From positions 620,001-684,000 of the forward strand of contig NZ_JAXCLX010000002.1 in NCBI RefSeq assembly GCF_034044635.1: 64,000 nucleotides of DNA, given 5' to 3'. The stretch's first letter is position 1. Every line of letters begins with the position of its first letter. A program made the translations under genes and the position numbers. Positions 7,871-46,661 of this stretch are shown here, one piece after another. The stretch is from Dongia rigui (lineage in GTDB: Bacteria > Pseudomonadota > Alphaproteobacteria > Dongiales > Dongiaceae). A model generated the notes under the pieces. The model was given only the letters and a program-made list of their open reading frames with translations. It was not told the origin of the DNA and made no database searches.

Positions 7871-8740
7871 ATGTGGGAAAGCCTGGGGCGCCTGACGGCA
7901 TTGCGCACGTTCTATGCGGTGGCGCGGGGCGGTGGGATCGCCGAAGGGGCGGCGCAACTCAACGTCACCACCGGCGCCGTGCGCTATCAGATCCGTCAGC
8001 TAGAGGCCGATCTTGGCGTTGAATTGATGGTCCGCAGTCAGCGTGCGCTGACCCTGACCGTGCCGGGGACCGAGCTCTATCAGAAGCTCGGCAGTGCCTT
8101 TGACGAAATCCATCTGGCCTGCCGCACCACCCAGCGCGGGCGGGTGGAGGGCGAGCTGCGCCTGGCCTGCGCCCCGGCCTTCGCCGCCTTGCGCCTGATG
8201 CGCCTCCTCGATCTTTTCTTGCAGCGTTTCCCTTCCGTCACCGTGAAGCATTTCCCGATCGAGCGCGCCGACGAGACGATGGATGTCATCATGTCCTTCG
8301 GCGAGCGCGACGTCCCTGGCAGGCGCACGGCGATCCTGCGCAATGAGACCTATTTCCCGCTGTGCAGCGCCGAGCTCTTCTACAAATCGCCGGTGAAATC
8401 GGTGCGTGATTTGCAGGACCACGTGCTCATCCATGGGGACAGCGAGGAAGACTGGCCGCGCTTGCTGCGGGCCAGCGGCCGCGGCCAGATCACGCCCCGC
8501 CAGCATGTCTATATGCCGAACTCGCATCTGGCCCTTGAAGCGGCCAAGGAAGGCTGTGGCATCGCCGTGGGCAGTACCATCCTTTGCGCCGATGATCTGC
8601 GCCGCGGCACACTGGTCAAGGTGCTCGATCTCGAGATTCCGGCACCGCATCCTTACTTCGTCATCCGCCCGGGCGACTCCGTCAGCCCGCTCGCCGACGC
8701 CTTTGCCGATCTGCTGATCGAGCAGTTGGAAAGGGCGTGA
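7871..8740 (+). CDS. LysR family transcriptional regulator
   Basis: 289 residues. The N-terminal winged helix-turn-helix (LTALRTFYAVARGGGIAEGAAQLNVTTGAV with RQLEADLGVELMVR) is followed by a periplasmic-binding-protein-like effector domain (GELRLACAPAFAALRLM, then HLALEAAKEGCGIAVG). The overall pattern is of the GcvA-like subgroup. It is divergent from the Rieske oxygenase and probably controls it. The start is 67 bp from the oxygenase start. Confidence 0.92.
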   Translation: MWESLGRLTALRTFYAVARGGGIAEGAAQLNVTTGAVRYQIRQLEADLGVELMVRSQRALTLTVPGTELYQKLGSAFDEIHLACRTTQRGRVEGELRLACAPAFAALRLMRLLDLFLQRFPSVTVKHFPIERADETMDVIMSFGERDVPGRRTAILRNETYFPLCSAELFYKSPVKSVRDLQDHVLIHGDSEEDWPRLLRASGRGQITPRQHVYMPNSHLALEAAKEGCGIAVGSTILCADDLRRGTLVKVLDLEIPAPHPYFVIRPGDSVSPLADAFADLLIEQLERA

Positions 8741-8743
8741 CGG

Positions 8744-9526
8744 TCAGGCGCGCTTCGCTGAGAGGATGAACCGGCGGTAGACAAAGGTGCGCAGTTTGTT
8801 GCGCAAGTTGGCGGCACGGCGCTGGGCACGGGCGATCGGCGCATGGGACGTGACCTGCAGCTCGGAGAAACCGGAACTGACCAGCAAAGGCATGAGGCGC
8901 TCGGCGGTAAGGCCATCGCCAAACGGCAAAGCCGACATGATGCCGGCATGCCGTTCGCTCATCGCGCCGTCATAGTTGAGGTCCGGCCCCTGCCATCGAT
9001 CCAGCAAGCCGATGAGGCTTGCAGCCAACCGGCCACTCGGCCTTGGTCTGGACCAGTCGCCGTCGAAGATCAACAATTGCCCCGCCGGTTTCAGCAGGCG
9101 GCGCCATTCCTGCAGTGCCGTTGCGGGGGCGGTCAGTGTCCAGACCAGATGACGACAGACAATCGCATCGAAGCTCTTGCTGGGCAGGAAGGTGTTTTCG
9201 GCATCACCCAGAATGAAGCGCAGGTTTCTCTCTTTGCCGGCGTGCTTTTTGCGCGCGACAGCCAGCATCGATTCCGAGAAATCCAGCGCCGTCACCTGAT
9301 GCCCCAGCGACAGCAGCACCTGGGTCACTTCGCCCGTACCGCAGGCCAGCTCCAGGACATGCAGCGGCCGATGCCCCAGATGGGCTGCAATGGCATCACG
9401 CCAGGCATCGAATTCGGCACCGGCTGGGATGCGGTGCCCGAACGCCAGGTCGAAGGTCTGCGCGCGGTCGGACCAGTATTGGCGGATATCTTCCTTCAGC
9501 GAGTGGTTGGCGAGGCGGATTGTCAT
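8744..9526 (-). CDS. Class I SAM-dependent methyltransferase (last gene of the ABC importer operon)
   Basis: 260 residues with a class I methyltransferase core: motif I VLELACGTGEVTQ, then VTALDFSESML, ILGDAENTF and FDAIVCRHLVWTL. Its ATG overlaps the stop of the ABC ATPase gene (ATGA), so it is translationally coupled to the importer. Such methyltransferases recur next to FecBCD-type importers in alphaproteobacteria, and modification of the imported metallophore or corrinoid is a reasonable inference. The methyl acceptor is unknown. It is convergent with the LysR gene, leaving 3 bp between stops. Confidence 0.85.
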   Translation of the reverse strand: MTIRLANHSLKEDIRQYWSDRAQTFDLAFGHRIPAGAEFDAWRDAIAAHLGHRPLHVLELACGTGEVTQVLLSLGHQVTALDFSESMLAVARKKHAGKERNLRFILGDAENTFLPSKSFDAIVCRHLVWTLTAPATALQEWRRLLKPAGQLLIFDGDWSRPRPSGRLAASLIGLLDRWQGPDLNYDGAMSERHAGIMSALPFGDGLTAERLMPLLVSSGFSELQVTSHAPIARAQRRAANLRNKLRTFVYRRFILSAKRA

Positions 9527-34247: not shown

Positions 34248-35039
34248 TCAGGAACCCTTGCGCGCGTCCGCGATAAGACCCTTGAGTTCCTCGATCGAAA
34301 GCGCGCCCGGCATGACATGATCGCCGACGATGAAGGTGGGGGTCGAGCGGATGCCGAGTGCCAGCGCCAGTTCGTGATTGGCGGTCAGCTGCTTTTCAAT
34401 GGCCTCCGACTTCATATCGGCCACCAGTTGCTCGCCATTGAGGCCTACCGCCGCGGCGACGCCGGCGATGGAATCGAGATCGAGCTGCCCGCGATGGGCC
34501 ATCAGCGCCTGATGGAAGGCCAAGTATTTGCCCTGCTTCTGGGCCGCGAGCGCTGCGCGCGACGCCAGCACGGATGGGTCGCCGAGGATCGGGAATTCCT
34601 TGAACACGATCCGGAGCTTCGGATCGTCTTTGAGCAGCCCTTCCAGGGCCGGCGATACCTGTTTGCAATAGGGGCATTTGTAATCGAAGAATTCGACCAG
34701 CGTCACATCGCCCAGCGGATTGCCGGCGACCGGCGCATCGGCATCGGCAAAGAGCTGGTCCTTGTACTTGGTGACGGCCTCCGACTGGCGGTCCGCCTTG
34801 GCTGCTTCCTCCTTGGCCTGCAAGGCCTGGATGGCGTCGCGTATGGTTTCAGGATTCTGCAGCAGGTAGTCGCGCGACAGCTTGCCGATCTCCTCGGCCT
34901 GCGCGGTCGTGAAGACGGCGCTGGACAGGGCCGCCTGCGGTGCCGTCTTTGGCTGAAGGATGCCAAGGCTGATGGCAAGGGCCGCTGCACTGAGGGCGAG
35001 GGCTGCCAGACCGGGAAGGTGACGCAGGAAACCAGACAT
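34248..35039 (-). CDS. DsbA/ScsC-like periplasmic thiol-disulfide protein
   Basis: 263 residues. N-terminal signal or anchor (LPGLAALALSAAALAISLGI), a helical region with RDYLLQNPETIRDAIQALQ and an AKEEAAKADRQSE coil as in the trimerisation stalk of ScsC/Com1-like proteins, then a thioredoxin fold with active-site CPYC (VEFFDYKCPYCKQVSP) and cis-Pro TPTFIV. Probably a disulfide isomerase or oxidase. It is 47 bp downstream of the M48 protease gene on the same strand; a pairing in envelope quality control is plausible. Confidence 0.9.
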   Translation of the reverse strand: MSGFLRHLPGLAALALSAAALAISLGILQPKTAPQAALSSAVFTTAQAEEIGKLSRDYLLQNPETIRDAIQALQAKEEAAKADRQSEAVTKYKDQLFADADAPVAGNPLGDVTLVEFFDYKCPYCKQVSPALEGLLKDDPKLRIVFKEFPILGDPSVLASRAALAAQKQGKYLAFHQALMAHRGQLDLDSIAGVAAAVGLNGEQLVADMKSEAIEKQLTANHELALALGIRSTPTFIVGDHVMPGALSIEELKGLIADARKGS

Positions 35040-35086
35040 GGGTCGAAATCCTTGGAACTGATGTGAATCGGTTGCGCCGCGTGGGG

Positions 35087-36475
35087 CTATTTGTTGGCCT
35101 TGATCATCTGCGCTTCGCTGATAATGTCATTGGCCTTGAGCCAGCCCGGCGATCCGGCAGGCAAGCCTTCGAGTGCGCGCTTGGCCTGCGCCCAGGCCTC
35201 GTCGGAGTTCCCCTGCGCCATCGCCTGTTCCGCCTGCGCCAGGGACGACATCGGCAGATTGCCGTCGCGCCCATAGGCCACGGACAGGAAATACCAGGCG
35301 CGCGAATTCCGTGGCTCGATCGTGGTCACGGCCTCGAGGTGCCGGATGGCGCTCTTGGTCAGTTCCGGCTCTTCCAGTTCGATCTCGACCTGCGCCACTT
35401 CCAGCCCCAGCAACGGTTCGGTCGGGAGCTGGTTGAAGGCGGCGGTATAGAGCGGCAGCGCTTCCCGCAGCTTGCCGTTCTCGAACAGGATCTGTGCTTT
35501 CTGCTCCAGGAAGTAGGGATCGTTGGGAATGTCGGCGAGCAGGCTGTCCATCAGTTGCAGCGCCTCCGGCATGCGGCTCACCCGAAACAGCGCGATGGCA
35601 CGGGCATAGCGCGCGCCAATGGATGTATCGGTCTTGGGGAACTCCTGCTCCACGCGCTGCAGCGGCCAGATATAGCCCTTCAGCTTCGCCACCATCCGCT
35701 CGTGTCGCGCGATATCCTCGGGCGGGTCCTTGGCATCGCTATAGGCCGATTCACTGACATGCTGCTCGACCGCCGAAACGCGGTCGGTGGTGAGCGGGTG
35801 GGTCAGCAGATAGGGGTCCTGGTTCTGCGGCAGCAGGAATTCCTGCTCCTCCAGCTTTTCGAAAAACTCGGCCATGCCGCGCGAGGACTGGTGGGTCGCA
35901 TCGAGAAAGCCCATGCCGGCCTGGTCGGCGGCGGCCTCCTGGGTGCGCGAATATTGGAGCAATGATCGCTTGGCAATCTCATTGCCCAGCGTCGTACCGG
36001 CGATGACTGCGCCACCATTGCCACTCGCGACGGCAGCACCGGCGCCCAGCAGCATACCGATGATCTGCTCGATGGTGGCGTTCTTGAGCTCGTCCTGGAT
36101 GCGCGACAGATGCGCCCCGGCGATATGGCCGGTTTCGTGGGCGATGACCCCCTTCACCTGGTTGGGCGTGTCGGCCCGCAACAGGAGGCCGGTATTGATG
36201 AACAAGCGCTGGCCGCCAGCGACAAATGCGTTGATTGAATCTTCGTTGACCAGCAGCACCCGGATCGCCAGCGGATCCAGCCCGGCGGCCCGGAAAAGGG
36301 GGTCGGCATAGGCGCGGATGGTGGATTCGATCTCGGCATCGCGGATCAGGCTTAAGGCCCGCTGCTGGGCCAGGGCAGGCCCGGCCGGCAGCGCGAGGCT
36401 CAAAGCCAGCAGCAAAGTGCCGATTTGTGCCCCGATTCGCCGGCAAACCTGCGTCGCATTGGCTCGGTTGATCAA
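35087..36475 (-). CDS. M48 family metalloprotease with TPR region (BepA-like)
   Basis: 462 residues: signal peptide (IGTLLLALSLALPAGPALAQ), then an M48 domain with zinc motif HETGH (VKGVIAHETGHIAGAHL) and a downstream Glu ligand in SRTQEAAADQAGMGFL, and a C-terminal half of helical repeats (ARAIALFRVSRMPEALQLMD; EKAQILFENGKL-type TPR units). BepA degrades or assists misassembled outer-membrane proteins such as LptD. Start TTG at 36475 with AGAAGGAAG upstream. Divergent from the GGT gene. Confidence 0.92.
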   Translation of the reverse strand: MINRANATQVCRRIGAQIGTLLLALSLALPAGPALAQQRALSLIRDAEIESTIRAYADPLFRAAGLDPLAIRVLLVNEDSINAFVAGGQRLFINTGLLLRADTPNQVKGVIAHETGHIAGAHLSRIQDELKNATIEQIIGMLLGAGAAVASGNGGAVIAGTTLGNEIAKRSLLQYSRTQEAAADQAGMGFLDATHQSSRGMAEFFEKLEEQEFLLPQNQDPYLLTHPLTTDRVSAVEQHVSESAYSDAKDPPEDIARHERMVAKLKGYIWPLQRVEQEFPKTDTSIGARYARAIALFRVSRMPEALQLMDSLLADIPNDPYFLEQKAQILFENGKLREALPLYTAAFNQLPTEPLLGLEVAQVEIELEEPELTKSAIRHLEAVTTIEPRNSRAWYFLSVAYGRDGNLPMSSLAQAEQAMAQGNSDEAWAQAKRALEGLPAGSPGWLKANDIISEAQMIKANK

Positions 36476-43125: not shown

Positions 43126-43878
43126 ATGCGTTTTGCGGGCAAAAGGGTTCTGGTCACGGGCGGTGCCCGTGGCATCGGCGCGGCGGCGGTGGAAGGCTTC
43201 CTCAAAGAAGGTGCCCATGTCGCCATCGGCGCGCGCTCCCAAGCCTCCTATGACGCCTTCGCGCGTGCCCATCCCGATGCCCGCATCGTGCCCGCGCTGG
43301 GCGAGATCGGCTCCCGCGTCGCGTGCGCCAAGGTCGTGGCGGCGGCCGAGATTGCCCTGGGCGGTCTCGATATCCTGGTGAACTCGGCCGGCTATTTCGC
43401 CGAAGTGCCGGTCGAGGAAATCGACCAGGAACATTGGGACCGCATCATGGAAACCAATGTCGCCGGCACCTTCTTCTGTTCGCAGGCGGCGCTCCCTGAA
43501 CTCAGGAAGAACAAGGGCAACATCGTCAACGTGGCGTCGGACGCCGGCCTCATCGGCTATCCCTTGGGGGCTGCCTATTCGGCATCAAAAGCTGCCGTCA
43601 TCAACCTCTCGCGCGCCATGGTGCTGGAACTCGCCCGCGACATCCGCATCAACTGCGTGGCCCCCGGCAATGTCGATACCGACATGATCGCCAAAGCGGC
43701 CGAGGCGAGCGGCAACGCCACCACCTACCTCACCCGCGCCCACGCCCGCTCACCCATGCAACGCATGGCGACACCGCAAGAGGTGGCCGACACCATCCTC
43801 TACCTCGCCTCGGAGCAAGCCAGCTTCGTCAACGGCGCCATCCTCTCGGTCGACGGCGGCGGGGTGTGCGGGTTTTAG
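43126..43878 (+). CDS. SDR family oxidoreductase
   Basis: 250 residues from the ATG at 43126 (GGGGAAG upstream). Classical SDR: cofactor loop VLVTGGARGIGAAAV, NSAG motif, catalytic Tyr/Lys in YSASKAAVINLSRAM (YxxxK), PG motif CVAPGNVDTDM and a C-terminal FVNGAILSVDGGGV. The beta2 region GARSQAS hints at NADP preference. A much longer frame on the same strand is a shadow of the TauD gene. Substrate unknown; divergent from TauD. Confidence 0.92.
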   Translation: MRFAGKRVLVTGGARGIGAAAVEGFLKEGAHVAIGARSQASYDAFARAHPDARIVPALGEIGSRVACAKVVAAAEIALGGLDILVNSAGYFAEVPVEEIDQEHWDRIMETNVAGTFFCSQAALPELRKNKGNIVNVASDAGLIGYPLGAAYSASKAAVINLSRAMVLELARDIRINCVAPGNVDTDMIAKAAEASGNATTYLTRAHARSPMQRMATPQEVADTILYLASEQASFVNGAILSVDGGGVCGF

Positions 43879-43933
43879 ATGCGTCGGGCTGGATGAAAAC
43901 CCGCTCCATTCAGGAGGTGGCCTTTCATTATTT

Positions 43934-44038
43934 CCCTCCCCCTTCAGGGGGAGGGCAGGGAGGGGGGTAAGCGAAGACTCCCGCCGCAAATAATCTCCCT
44001 CCCTCTCCCCTCGCGGGAGAGGGTCGGGGTGAGGGGGT
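43934..44038. repeat. Interspersed palindromic repeat, family A, copy 3 (divergent left half)
   Basis: The right half matches the family (CTCTCCCCTCGCGGGAGAGG then GTCGGGGTGAGGGG). The left half is a variant (CCCTCCCCCTTCAGGGGGAG, GGCAGGGAGGGGGG). It is followed by family B copies, making a cluster of repeats of about 300 bp. Confidence 0.75.
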
Positions 44039-44066
44039 AAGTGAAGACCGCCAGCCCACGTCCCAC

Positions 44067-44157
44067 CGTCATGCTCTGGCTTGGCCCGGGCATCCGCGAA
44101 TTGCTTCCTTCCATCACACCCAACGCGCGGATGGCCGGCCGTCCCCCACCATGACGA
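44067..44157. repeat. Interspersed repeat, family B, copy 2
   Basis: It opens CGTCATGCTCTGGCTTGGCC then CGGGCATCCGCGAA and closes GCGCGGATGGCCGGCCGTCC then CCACCATGACGA, again with inverted termini (TCGTCATG against CATGACGA). Intergenic, no coding capacity. Confidence 0.7.
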
Positions 44158-44182
44158 CAGAGGGCCGATGCACCCACCTCCA

Positions 44183-44230
44183 CCATCGTCATCCTCTGCG
44201 AAGGCGGGGGATCCACGAGTTTCTTTCTTC
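44183..44230. repeat. Partial family B repeat, copy 3
   Basis: CCATCGTCATCCTCTGCGAA followed by GGCGGGGGATCCACGAGTTTC resembles the left end of family B only; no matching right end follows. Probably a truncated copy. Confidence 0.5.
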
Positions 44231-44551
44231 GACAGTCTGGCAACGTGCAGTTGGTATGTCGGTAGTTGACATCGGCGAGTGACGCCCCCGGCATCCGAAG
44301 CATTGGCGCCAACACCCTTGATGACCACATCTGTGCCAAATCCACGGGCGCGCCCTTCCGCCACCACTACCTCTACCTCGACCGAGTCTAGGCGGCCGTA
44401 CCGGAGGAGAGGGACGGTATGAGACAAATTCTAGGGAGTAGATGCAAGTTGCTCTCAAAAATAGTTATAGAGCATACTTTATGATGAAGGTACAACTCGC
44501 GGCATCATCCTGATTGTCGTTTTCAATTTTCTAGAAACCCGCGTCCGGCCA
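44231..44551. other. Gap upstream of the orphan gene, composition changes midway
   Basis: The first 170 bp keep host-like GC. From about 44415 the sequence becomes AT-rich up to the orphan gene, marking one edge of the atypical block. A minus-strand frame starting at a TTG near 44427 gives some 60 protein-like residues (VEVEVVVAEGRARGFGTDVV) and then runs into the repeats; it could be a broken gene end but I do not recognise it. No terminator, att site or tRNA remnant seen. Confidence 0.4.
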
Positions 44552-45649
44552 ATGACTCTTGTTGTCGCGACAAAGCTGTTCGAAGTGCCCGTCTTGGCAG
44601 GTGACTTTATTGTCAGCAGCAAGGGTACAACAGTGCCGCACATGATGGTGCCAACTCAACCCAGGCTGCCGAGTTTGATGCCCGCAGGCGCCGCGTGGAA
44701 AATATCTGGCTTGCGAAAAAAGATCTCAATTGTTCGGCCAGAACTCGCTTTGGGCTGGTCGGGATCCACTATTGGCGCTCGCACACTTATTCGCGAACTG
44801 AGGGAGTATCAGCCAATTACTCCTTTCACCTTCGCATCACTATCAAAGTTTCTTTCGACTCTTCATGACTTTGGCTCCAACGTGGTGGAAGTTGTCGGAT
44901 GGGTTGGCTCAGACGCCCCTACTGCATTTCGATGGTGCAGCGATTGCCATAGGCAAATCGAAGCCATCGGCGATGTCGCCATCGGTTCTGGTGCGAGCAC
45001 ATGGATCTCCGCGCAGCCGAGAGCAATGTCACATTTCAGCGCCACATTGGTTGATCCTGCCGAGCGGGCAATTTCGGCGATGCTGGCTAAGGCAGCAATT
45101 CTATTAGGAAGTGAGGTTCATACAGGAAGCACGCTTAAGCATTTTTCTGGGTACGGGCTCGAATTGATATATTGGGCGCAAGGCAGCTTCCGGTATGTCG
45201 ATGAAGTAACCTATCTAATGTTTGATATAGAGGCGGTATCTCCCGAAAATTTCCAAGGAAACATCATACCAATAATCTACAAATATAAATCATTTGGGCA
45301 GCACTGCATTGTACAAGTCACCCAACTCAATAGCGCGGGTCGTCGCGGAGCAAAATCCGGCGACACTTTCGTAAGCGTCATAACGCCCGTCGACAATTCT
45401 ATGCCCGATCTTGATCTCAAGAAAATTGAACCTTTGTCGCTTCGGTCAGACTACTATTGCGTCTTCATCCGCTGGAGGCTTCTGGGGCGCGGAGAGTTCT
45501 CCGGACCAATAGTGCTTGCGGCAGACGGGAACGATGACGCATTTTCATTCAATAGTGCGCACGGGATCGAGTATATCAGCCTGAAGAATGCCTTCGTGTC
45601 GTCGCTTATACGCAATATGTCAAGCTACAAGCCGCCATTCCTCAGGTGA
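44552..45649 (+). CDS. Orphan protein with proteasome/HslV-like Ntn-hydrolase N-terminal domain
   Basis: 365 residues. After removal of the initiator Met, Thr is residue 1 (TLVVATKLFEVPVLAGD), and Asp follows at position 17, the spacing of catalytic T1 and D17 in proteasome beta subunits. A longer loop then leads to KKISIVRPELALGWSGS, matching the K33 strand and turn 'KI..I....A.G.sG', and later GDVAIGSGASTWIS, matching the GSGS loop. Residues about 170-208 fit the last helix and strand. About 150 further residues have no proteasome counterpart. The gene is clearly AT-richer than its neighbours and uses ATA, TTA and CTA codons, a sign of transfer. It has no partner genes. Fold assignment is by eye. 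Confidence 0.72.
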   Translation: MTLVVATKLFEVPVLAGDFIVSSKGTTVPHMMVPTQPRLPSLMPAGAAWKISGLRKKISIVRPELALGWSGSTIGARTLIRELREYQPITPFTFASLSKFLSTLHDFGSNVVEVVGWVGSDAPTAFRWCSDCHRQIEAIGDVAIGSGASTWISAQPRAMSHFSATLVDPAERAISAMLAKAAILLGSEVHTGSTLKHFSGYGLELIYWAQGSFRYVDEVTYLMFDIEAVSPENFQGNIIPIIYKYKSFGQHCIVQVTQLNSAGRRGAKSGDTFVSVITPVDNSMPDLDLKKIEPLSLRSDYYCVFIRWRLLGRGEFSGPIVLAADGNDDAFSFNSAHGIEYISLKNAFVSSLIRNMSSYKPPFLR

Positions 45650-45776
45650 GCTCATGCGTGTCGTTTCCGGGCTATAGCGGTAAGCGATAGTGTCCCAAGC
45701 CTTTGCACGAAACCTGATGGTCCTCGCATTGCATATCGGATAAACAAGCCGTCGTTATAGCAAGCATTCGGCCCCC

Positions 45777-46661
45777 ATGACCCTCCAAACCCGCGGCATC
45801 TTCCTCTACCTCGCCGGCGTCGCACTGTTCGCGGCGAATGATGCGTTGGGGAAGTGGCTGGTCACCGATTACTCGGTCGCCGAGCTGATGCTCATTCGCT
45901 CGCTGGGGTCGATTGTGCTCATCCTTGGGTTGATGCGCTCGACCGGGGCGACGCTCAAATTGCCGCCGGGGCAGGGGTGGCTGCATGTGGTGCGCATCCT
46001 GCTTCTGGCGGGTGACAGCTTCTCCTTCTATTTCGCCACCAAGGCGCTGCCATTGGCCGACGTCATGACCTTCTACATGTCGGCGCCGCTCATCATCACG
46101 GCGGCGTCGGCCTTGCTGCTCCATGAAAAGGTCGGGCTGAAGCGCTGGGGCGCCATCATCGTCGGCTTCGGCGGTGTCGTCATCGCCCTGCAGCCGACCA
46201 GTGCCGCGTTCTCGCCCTCGGCCCTCGTCGCCCTCTCGGGTGCGGCGTGTTTTGCCCTGGCGATGGTGATCACGCGGCGCTTGCGCGATTGCCATTGGGT
46301 GACGCTGGTCGCCTGGCAGTTCATCGGCTGCGGCATCCTCGGCGTGGTGGCGACACCCTTCGACTGGATCATGCCGACGCCGCTCGATTTCACCCTCATG
46401 GCGTTGGTGGGGCTGGTCGCCTGCGGCTGCTTCATGCTGGTGACCAAGGCGCTCGCCCTGGCGCCGGCCTCGCTGCTGGCGCCCTTTCAATACACCGCCA
46501 TCGTCTGGGCGACGATCCTGGGCTGGATCTTCTTCGGCGATGCGCCGACACCGCCCATCATCCTTGGCAGCCTCATCATCATCGCCAGCGGCCTCTTCGT
46601 CCTCTACCGCGAGCGCACGCTCAAGGTCGTCGTCAACGAGCGGGTCGAGCCGATCCCCTGA
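45777..46661 (+). CDS. EamA/DMT family transporter
   Basis: 294 residues, ten hydrophobic segments in two EamA repeats: GIFLYLAGVALFAANDALGKWLV at the start, RWGAIIVGFGGVVIAL at the end of repeat one, and ASLLAPFQYTAIVWATILGW followed by PIILGSLIIIASGLFVLYRE at the end. It has the RhaT/YdcZ-like drug/metabolite transporter look. Normal GC composition, so host sequence resumes here after the orphan gene. Confidence 0.9.
   Translation: MTLQTRGIFLYLAGVALFAANDALGKWLVTDYSVAELMLIRSLGSIVLILGLMRSTGATLKLPPGQGWLHVVRILLLAGDSFSFYFATKALPLADVMTFYMSAPLIITAASALLLHEKVGLKRWGAIIVGFGGVVIALQPTSAAFSPSALVALSGAACFALAMVITRRLRDCHWVTLVAWQFIGCGILGVVATPFDWIMPTPLDFTLMALVGLVACGCFMLVTKALALAPASLLAPFQYTAIVWATILGWIFFGDAPTPPIILGSLIIIASGLFVLYRERTLKVVVNERVEPIP

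Follow-up and report, generated by a model that had tools for sequence, protein, structure and literature searches.

A lone gene in a 64,000-nucleotide stretch of the Dongia rigui genome (positions 620001-684000 of contig NZ_JAXCLX010000002.1; genome size 4.66 Mb), an alphaproteobacterium, hereafter called the window, probably encodes an active proteasome-like hydrolase with an N-terminal threonine nucleophile. To judge from sequence conservation and a predicted fold, this 365-residue protein would most likely be a peptidase whose substrates are proteins or peptides, working with no dedicated ATPase. Proteasome-like proteins include barrel proteases at one extreme and a monomeric protein ligase at the other, and for many of their bacterial subfamilies no function is known (Fuchs, Alva and Lupas 2021, PMC8665760). 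An earlier sequence-only reading of the window had proposed a proteasome/HslV-like N-terminal nucleophile (Ntn) hydrolase at this place, and this overall assignment is supported by the analysis presented here.

Conservation of the catalytic residues was counted in a 13-row alignment of distinct homologues, window protein included, and residues are numbered as in the window protein. Thr2, Asp18, Lys57, Gly71, Gly145, Gly147, and Gly200 are invariant in all 13 rows, and Trp69, Pro13, Gly17, Pro34, Gly201, Glu204, and Pro279 are kept in 12, with the window protein itself being the exception at position 201, where it has a Tyr in place of Gly. The spacing is constant in every homologue, with 16 residues from Thr to Asp and 14 from Lys to Gly, which matches the Thr1-Asp17 and Lys33-Gly47 distances of the proteasome. 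Because the motif formed by Thr2, Asp18, and Lys57 is invariant and constantly spaced over 13 divergent homologues, a chance resemblance to proteasome residues could be ruled out. The sequence-only reading had listed these three residues, a GWSGS motif, and a GSGAS loop at 145-149 in the order of the Ntn fold; the three residues, G-W-S-G-S (68-72), and G-S-G (145-147) were confirmed, and no homologue lacks Thr2, Asp18, or Lys57. We take G-S-G to correspond to the Ser129 loop region. It had also noted the Met-Thr start, and ATG-ACT is indeed the first start codon in the frame. A start codon (ATG, GTG, or TTG) directly precedes the Thr in all 13 homologues; their starts were chosen by us, being the first of the frame in 8 of 13 and, for the Oscillatoria protein, the annotated one. 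A Thr following Met is a good site for methionine aminopeptidase. For BPH, removal of Met exposing Thr1 is reported in PMC5777263, and the roles of Thr1, Asp17, Lys33, and Gly47 of the proteasome are set out in PMC8665760.

The predicted structure points in the same direction. It shows the proteasome alpha-beta-beta-alpha fold, the feature by which the sequence-only reading had proposed to check its assignment, and the strands of the Ntn core run to residue 228. Single-sequence AlphaFold was of no use (predicted local distance difference test, pLDDT, 29.9; predicted template modelling score 0.19). The 50 matches listed by Foldseek are all proteasome chains. A second structural comparison likewise had no family other than the proteasome among its 50 matches listed, by which other families are not excluded. 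In this second comparison, where the range of the target chain begins at residue 1 (29 listed alignments), that of the model begins at residue 2 in 26, and structural alignments to 20S beta subunits give 11-18% identity. Helices predicted at 73-85 and 94-102 in this one model correspond to H1 and H2. A profile search of the PDB returned 19 matches: 16 alpha-type subunits (including 13 alpha-7 orthologues), two beta subunits, and one HslV. With hhalign, the family pairs in register with HslV at Thr1, Asp17, Lys33, and Gly47, and does so better than with 12 sequences that we labelled Anbu-like, against which the E-value (E) was 0.15, no better than the control. The window protein alone had no match at E up to 10 in Pfam, NCBIfam, PHROGs, or PADLOC, and none in the PDB by phmmer. 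Comparison of the model with BFVD brought up phage proteins that share the fold, such as A0A0B5H8V9 of Vibrio phage phi 3 (173 residues, E 1.7e-3, template modelling (TM) score 0.63 by target); to judge by length, such proteins are perhaps the published phage subfamily PPH.

Two additions to this core are characteristic of the family. The spacing equivalent to Asp17-Lys33 is 36-44 residues in 12 of the 13 members and 15 in the copy from Candidatus Tenderia electrophaga, the sole member without the insert, compared with 16 in the HslV-type protein of the same Dongia genome. The insert carries an (I/V/L)-P-(T/S/V) motif, which includes Pro34, and is modelled with low confidence (low pLDDT at residues 21-43). 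By the strand numbering of the 20S structure, the S3/S4 site presumably falls in this segment. The active-site lid of connectase sits at an S3/S4 insertion (PMC8665760). The second addition is a C-terminal extension of 120-150 residues, present in every member; in the window protein it measures about 133 residues, close to the roughly 150 estimated earlier. Searched alone against the PDB with a profile from 11 of the 13 rows, the C-terminal part gave one match at E 1.1, which was taken as chance. The C-terminal domain that the sequence-only reading called new is a candidate only. Between pairs of members, identity averages 22.8% over the core and 15.5% over the C-terminal part.

How the family relates to known proteasome-like proteins can be described case by case. 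It shares with HslV (ClpQ; PF00227) the Ntn fold and the register of Thr1, Asp17, Lys33, and Gly47, but differs in having no adjoining hslU, no PF00227 match, and both the insert and the C-terminal residues; the window's genome encodes a separate PF00227 protein with an HslV-like start elsewhere. Compared with 20S beta subunits, the window protein has no propeptide and no adjoining alpha partner, and again carries the insert and tail. Connectase offers a long Asp17-Lys33 segment and, in some cases, a small C-terminal beta barrel, yet it lacks H1 and H2 and occurs in methanogens (PMC8665760), whereas the window family is bacterial and keeps two helices at H1/H2. BPH, Anbu, and 22 further subfamilies, especially RPC, DAH, DPH, and GPH, are similar in being mostly rare, context-poor bacterial proteins with the triad, some with an unmatched C-terminal domain; for these 22, PMC8665760 gives no contexts that suggest a function and no AAA+ partners. 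RPC shares the C-terminal extension but lacks H2, whereas the window protein has a helix predicted at 94-102. In the text of PMC8665760, compared by description only, no subfamily save connectase has an insertion at S3/S4 together with a C-terminal domain, and by these descriptions the window family fits none of the 22. We nevertheless judge the chance that it is one of them, most likely DAH or DPH, to be only somewhat short of even. The family belongs to the known proteasome-like kind, of which it is probably a variant not described before. The accession WP_015211639, that of the Oscillatoria homologue, was not found in the literature searched.

A mechanism can be proposed by homology and from the strict conservation of the residues concerned. 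Methionine aminopeptidase would remove Met1, and the freed Thr would attack a peptide bond; Lys57 and Asp18 would act as the base system and Gly71 as the oxyanion hole, and the ester intermediate would then be hydrolysed. The insert between Asp18 and Lys57, in the segment of the connectase lid, probably narrows the choice of substrate, and the beta-rich C-terminal extension probably serves docking or assembly. Several points weigh against this reading. A conserved Thr centre would equally permit a ligase or an amidase. An in-frame start lies farther upstream in 5 of the 13 homologues, and no clear Shine-Dalgarno sequence was recognised by eye before the window gene, so that its expression is only presumed. 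The structure model was built on 7 sequences, with pLDDT below 50 for 71 of 365 residues, so that confidence in the fold is moderate; among the 50 Foldseek matches listed, query-based TM scores are 0.32-0.38 and target-based ones 0.44-0.60, and root-mean-square deviations are 4.9-7.4. The 19 PDB profile matches are not independent and cover mainly the region from Lys33 to H1, leaving the N-terminal Thr uncovered. Finally, no Pfam model matches, PF00227 included: at E up to 10, not one family was hit by the window protein or by any of the 7 members scanned of the 13.

The family is rare and scattered among bacteria. With tblastn, the window protein matched 2 of 72,556 PLSDB records, a conjugative plasmid of Oscillatoria nigro-viridis (E 2e-13) and a plasmid of Ca. 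Tenderia electrophaga (E 0.1, or 4e-5 with the Oscillatoria protein as query); plasmid searches with other members returned one or both of these records and no others. Of 50,697 phage records, none matched the window protein by tblastn at E up to 1. The Myxococcota copy had no phage match at E up to 10, and the Mariprofundus copy had two records at E 8-10, which were taken as chance. Four scans of viral contigs gave no confirmed relative. Profile searches found the gene in 2/398, 4/337, 1/78, 2/235, 1/15, 2/369, and 2/296 genomes, and a single-protein search in 1/96; these draws overlap and are not additive, and each count includes the seed genome. In the large draws, about 1% of genomes or fewer carry the gene. 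A scan of GTDB contigs yielded 6 loci from 38 stretches, and a first contig scan none from 22. After removal of duplicates (L005=L010, L007=L013=L021, L019=L015, L022=L011, L023=L003, L024=L014, L001=L004=window), 13 distinct members of 343-393 residues were retained: those of the window, Oscillatoria (L002), Tenderia (L003), Mariprofundus (L010), a gammaproteobacterial metagenome-assembled genome (MAG; L011), Marinicaulis flavus (L012), a Rhodospirillaceae MAG (L013), a Sphingomonadaceae MAG (L014), and a Myxococcota MAG (L015), together with L008, L009, L020, and L025. A tree of the 13 cores had support values of 0.22-0.98, with 3 of 10 nodes below 0.5; phyla were intermixed, the window protein was unplaced, and no further use was made of it.

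The neighbourhoods of the homologues were judged by eye from listings of open reading frames (ORFs), with selected neighbours profiled and no background rate for defence genes; one flank is short at the Mariprofundus, gammaproteobacterial, Tenderia, and L080 loci. In Oscillatoria, the homologue (WP_015211639.1, 'hypothetical protein'; L002:8001-9182, equivalent to 34579-35760 of the conjugative plasmid NC_019763.1) forms part of a type I restriction operon: hsdS ends at 7999, a single base precedes the homologue, and hsdR starts at 9163, overlapping it by 20 nt. Genes for multiubiquitin, E2, and ThiF lie 5-7 kb upstream. The Tenderia homologue (L003:7995-9026, CP013100.1, minus strand) has a GTG start and is unannotated; multiubiquitin, JAB-like (below the Pfam cut-off), and ThiF genes are found 3-5 kb upstream. 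At L014, an Mrr-type gene (PF04471) lies upstream at less than 1 kb, as does an LmuB-like gene at about 6.6 kb. A Pfam-negative protein of 225 residues (L014:8327-9004), whose sequence is hydrophobic by eye close to the N-terminus, is encoded there too; its gene overlaps the start of the homologue by 4 nt, and it is possibly a partner. At L081 (7126-16238), the region around L025, a comM (Mg-chelatase) fragment lies near the homologue, together with genes for an S1/P1 nuclease, a HATPase (below the Pfam cut-off), a Rha-like regulator, and, by eye, a resolvase; this arrangement resembles an island that has integrated into comM. The gene adjacent to the homologue in the Myxococcota MAG encodes DUF4238. 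Elsewhere the surroundings appear housekeeping-like, and 9 of the 13 loci, including the window, have no conflict-type gene in the listed flanks. No AAA+ unfoldase was recognised near the gene in these listings. Of the 9 genomes tested for the multiubiquitin family PF14452, one contains it; a multiubiquitin partner in the window's genome was rejected, as no PF14452 match exists there. The genome of M. flavus encodes a multiubiquitin (PF14452) at G713:C8:100263-100661, unseen in the 9-kb flanks of L012.

Other explanations would give the same protein a different role. One is a connectase-like ligase or transpeptidase, in which the acyl-enzyme formed on Thr1 would be resolved by the amine of another protein, with the insert as a lid and the C-terminal beta structure as a docking part. 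The long Asp17-Lys33 segment, where the S3/S4 insertion of connectase lies, and the beta-rich C-terminal part, which recalls the barrel of some connectases, fit this view, but the H1/H2 helices that connectase lacks and a Tenderia copy without any insert make it unlikely. It is still less probable that the fold was horizontally recruited as a non-peptide amidase or acylase for a small molecule. Ntn hydrolases are versatile (PMC8665760), and the lone gene without a recognised AAA+ unfoldase would suit such an enzyme; the 50 listed fold matches are nevertheless proteasome chains, and the profile matches in the PDB are to proteasome or HslV proteins and not to other Ntn amidases.

The sequence-only reading had raised a role in conflict or stress, which is only hinted at: 4 of the 13 loci, those described above, are close to restriction, ubiquitin-like, or mobile genes, with no background control, and this is a lead rather than a finding. 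An accessory of conflict systems, acting beside restriction or ubiquitin-like conjugation genes and trimming, for example, HsdR or ubiquitin-like conjugates, would explain the hsdS-homologue-hsdR arrangement and the company of multiubiquitin, JAB-like, Mrr-type, and LmuB-like genes, but the nine loci without such genes and the scarcity of PF14452 render it about as doubtful as the ligase. Least probable of all is a catalytically dead or decaying gene: the low GC (guanine plus cytosine) content, the poor start context, and the adjoining decayed GFA gene (see below) would agree with it, but the ORF is full length for the family and every invariant residue is intact. As to the preferred reading of an active threonine hydrolase, one may go further and speculate, with a good deal of reserve, that the family is an undescribed subfamily that independently reached connectase-like equipment (a long Asp-Lys segment and a C-terminal beta domain) with proteasome-type helices kept, that it acts as an ATPase-free selective protease or ligase, and that it moves between phyla and was built into a conflict locus at least once, the type I restriction operon.

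To the bacterial proteasome-like proteins without a known function, the family adds one with the core catalytic residues and two additions of its own, and at least one physically coupled context, hsdS-X-hsdR in Oscillatoria, makes its role testable. A threonine protease or ligase that is small, needs no ATPase, and selects its substrates would also make a useful tool. Table 1 gives the positions of the features.

Table 1. Features of the proteasome-like gene and its upstream flank, in window coordinates.
Feature	Position	Strand	Basis
ORF, proteasome-like Ntn hydrolase, 365 residues	44552..45649	+	ORF call, homologues, predicted fold
Thr2 codon, putative N-terminal nucleophile (Thr1) once Met is removed	44555..44557	+	in-frame start directly before Thr, 13/13
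Asp18 codon (proteasome Asp17)	44603..44605	+	invariant 13/13, 16 residues past Thr
Family insert, about residues 21-47	44612..44692	+	Asp-Lys spacing; low pLDDT at 21-43
Lys57 codon (proteasome Lys33)	44720..44722	+	invariant 13/13; pairs with HslV Lys33 in profile alignment
Gly71 codon (proteasome Gly47, putative oxyanion hole)	44762..44764	+	invariant 13/13, 14 residues past Lys
G-S-G 145-147	44984..44992	+	both Gly invariant 13/13; aligns with HslV GSG
C-terminal extension, residues 231-365	45242..45646	+	present 13/13; mostly beta plus a helix near the end predicted
Decayed GFA gene remnant	44283..44364	+	82 nt, 75.6% identical to L027:1166-1247 (sister species)

The ORF is uninterrupted and stands alone, as described earlier: the SDR gene before it ends at 43878, and the EamA transporter gene after it starts at 45777. 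The neighbours profiled (SDR, EamA, a TauD dioxygenase, and a PAS_5 protein) bear out that this is neither an HslUV nor an actinobacterial proteasome context. The term 'orphan' suits the neighbourhood; the protein itself has relatives and is no orphan. Likewise, 'AT-rich' holds relative to the genome only, the ORF having 50.6% GC (53.8% at third codon positions) and the window 63.1%, with 73-89% at third positions in five other ORFs. The clustered repeats reported beside the gene amount to three short direct repeats of two copies each, plus two inverted pairs, with no tandem array found around it, and are not notable. A regulatory scan gave two promoter-like sites and one terminator-like site, which is chance level, and Rfam had no match within 43800-46000.

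None of the six other genomes of the genus carries the gene, but EamA homologues are present in all seven genomes, that of the window among them (best matches 54-100% identity). A sister genome (EamA 93%) has an intact GFA gene between SDR and EamA (PF04828, E 2.2e-26), of which the window keeps a short remnant. Loss of GFA together with gain of a foreign gene would be the simplest reading, and by sequence comparison the window gene is apparently a horizontally moving accessory gene, placed recently at the GFA site. In the intergenic stretch 43879-44551, the separate pieces at 44065-44138 and at 44207-44233 both align with one segment of the sister genome, an indication of a short dispersed repeat; 16 bases taken from this putative repeat have a single occurrence in the window.
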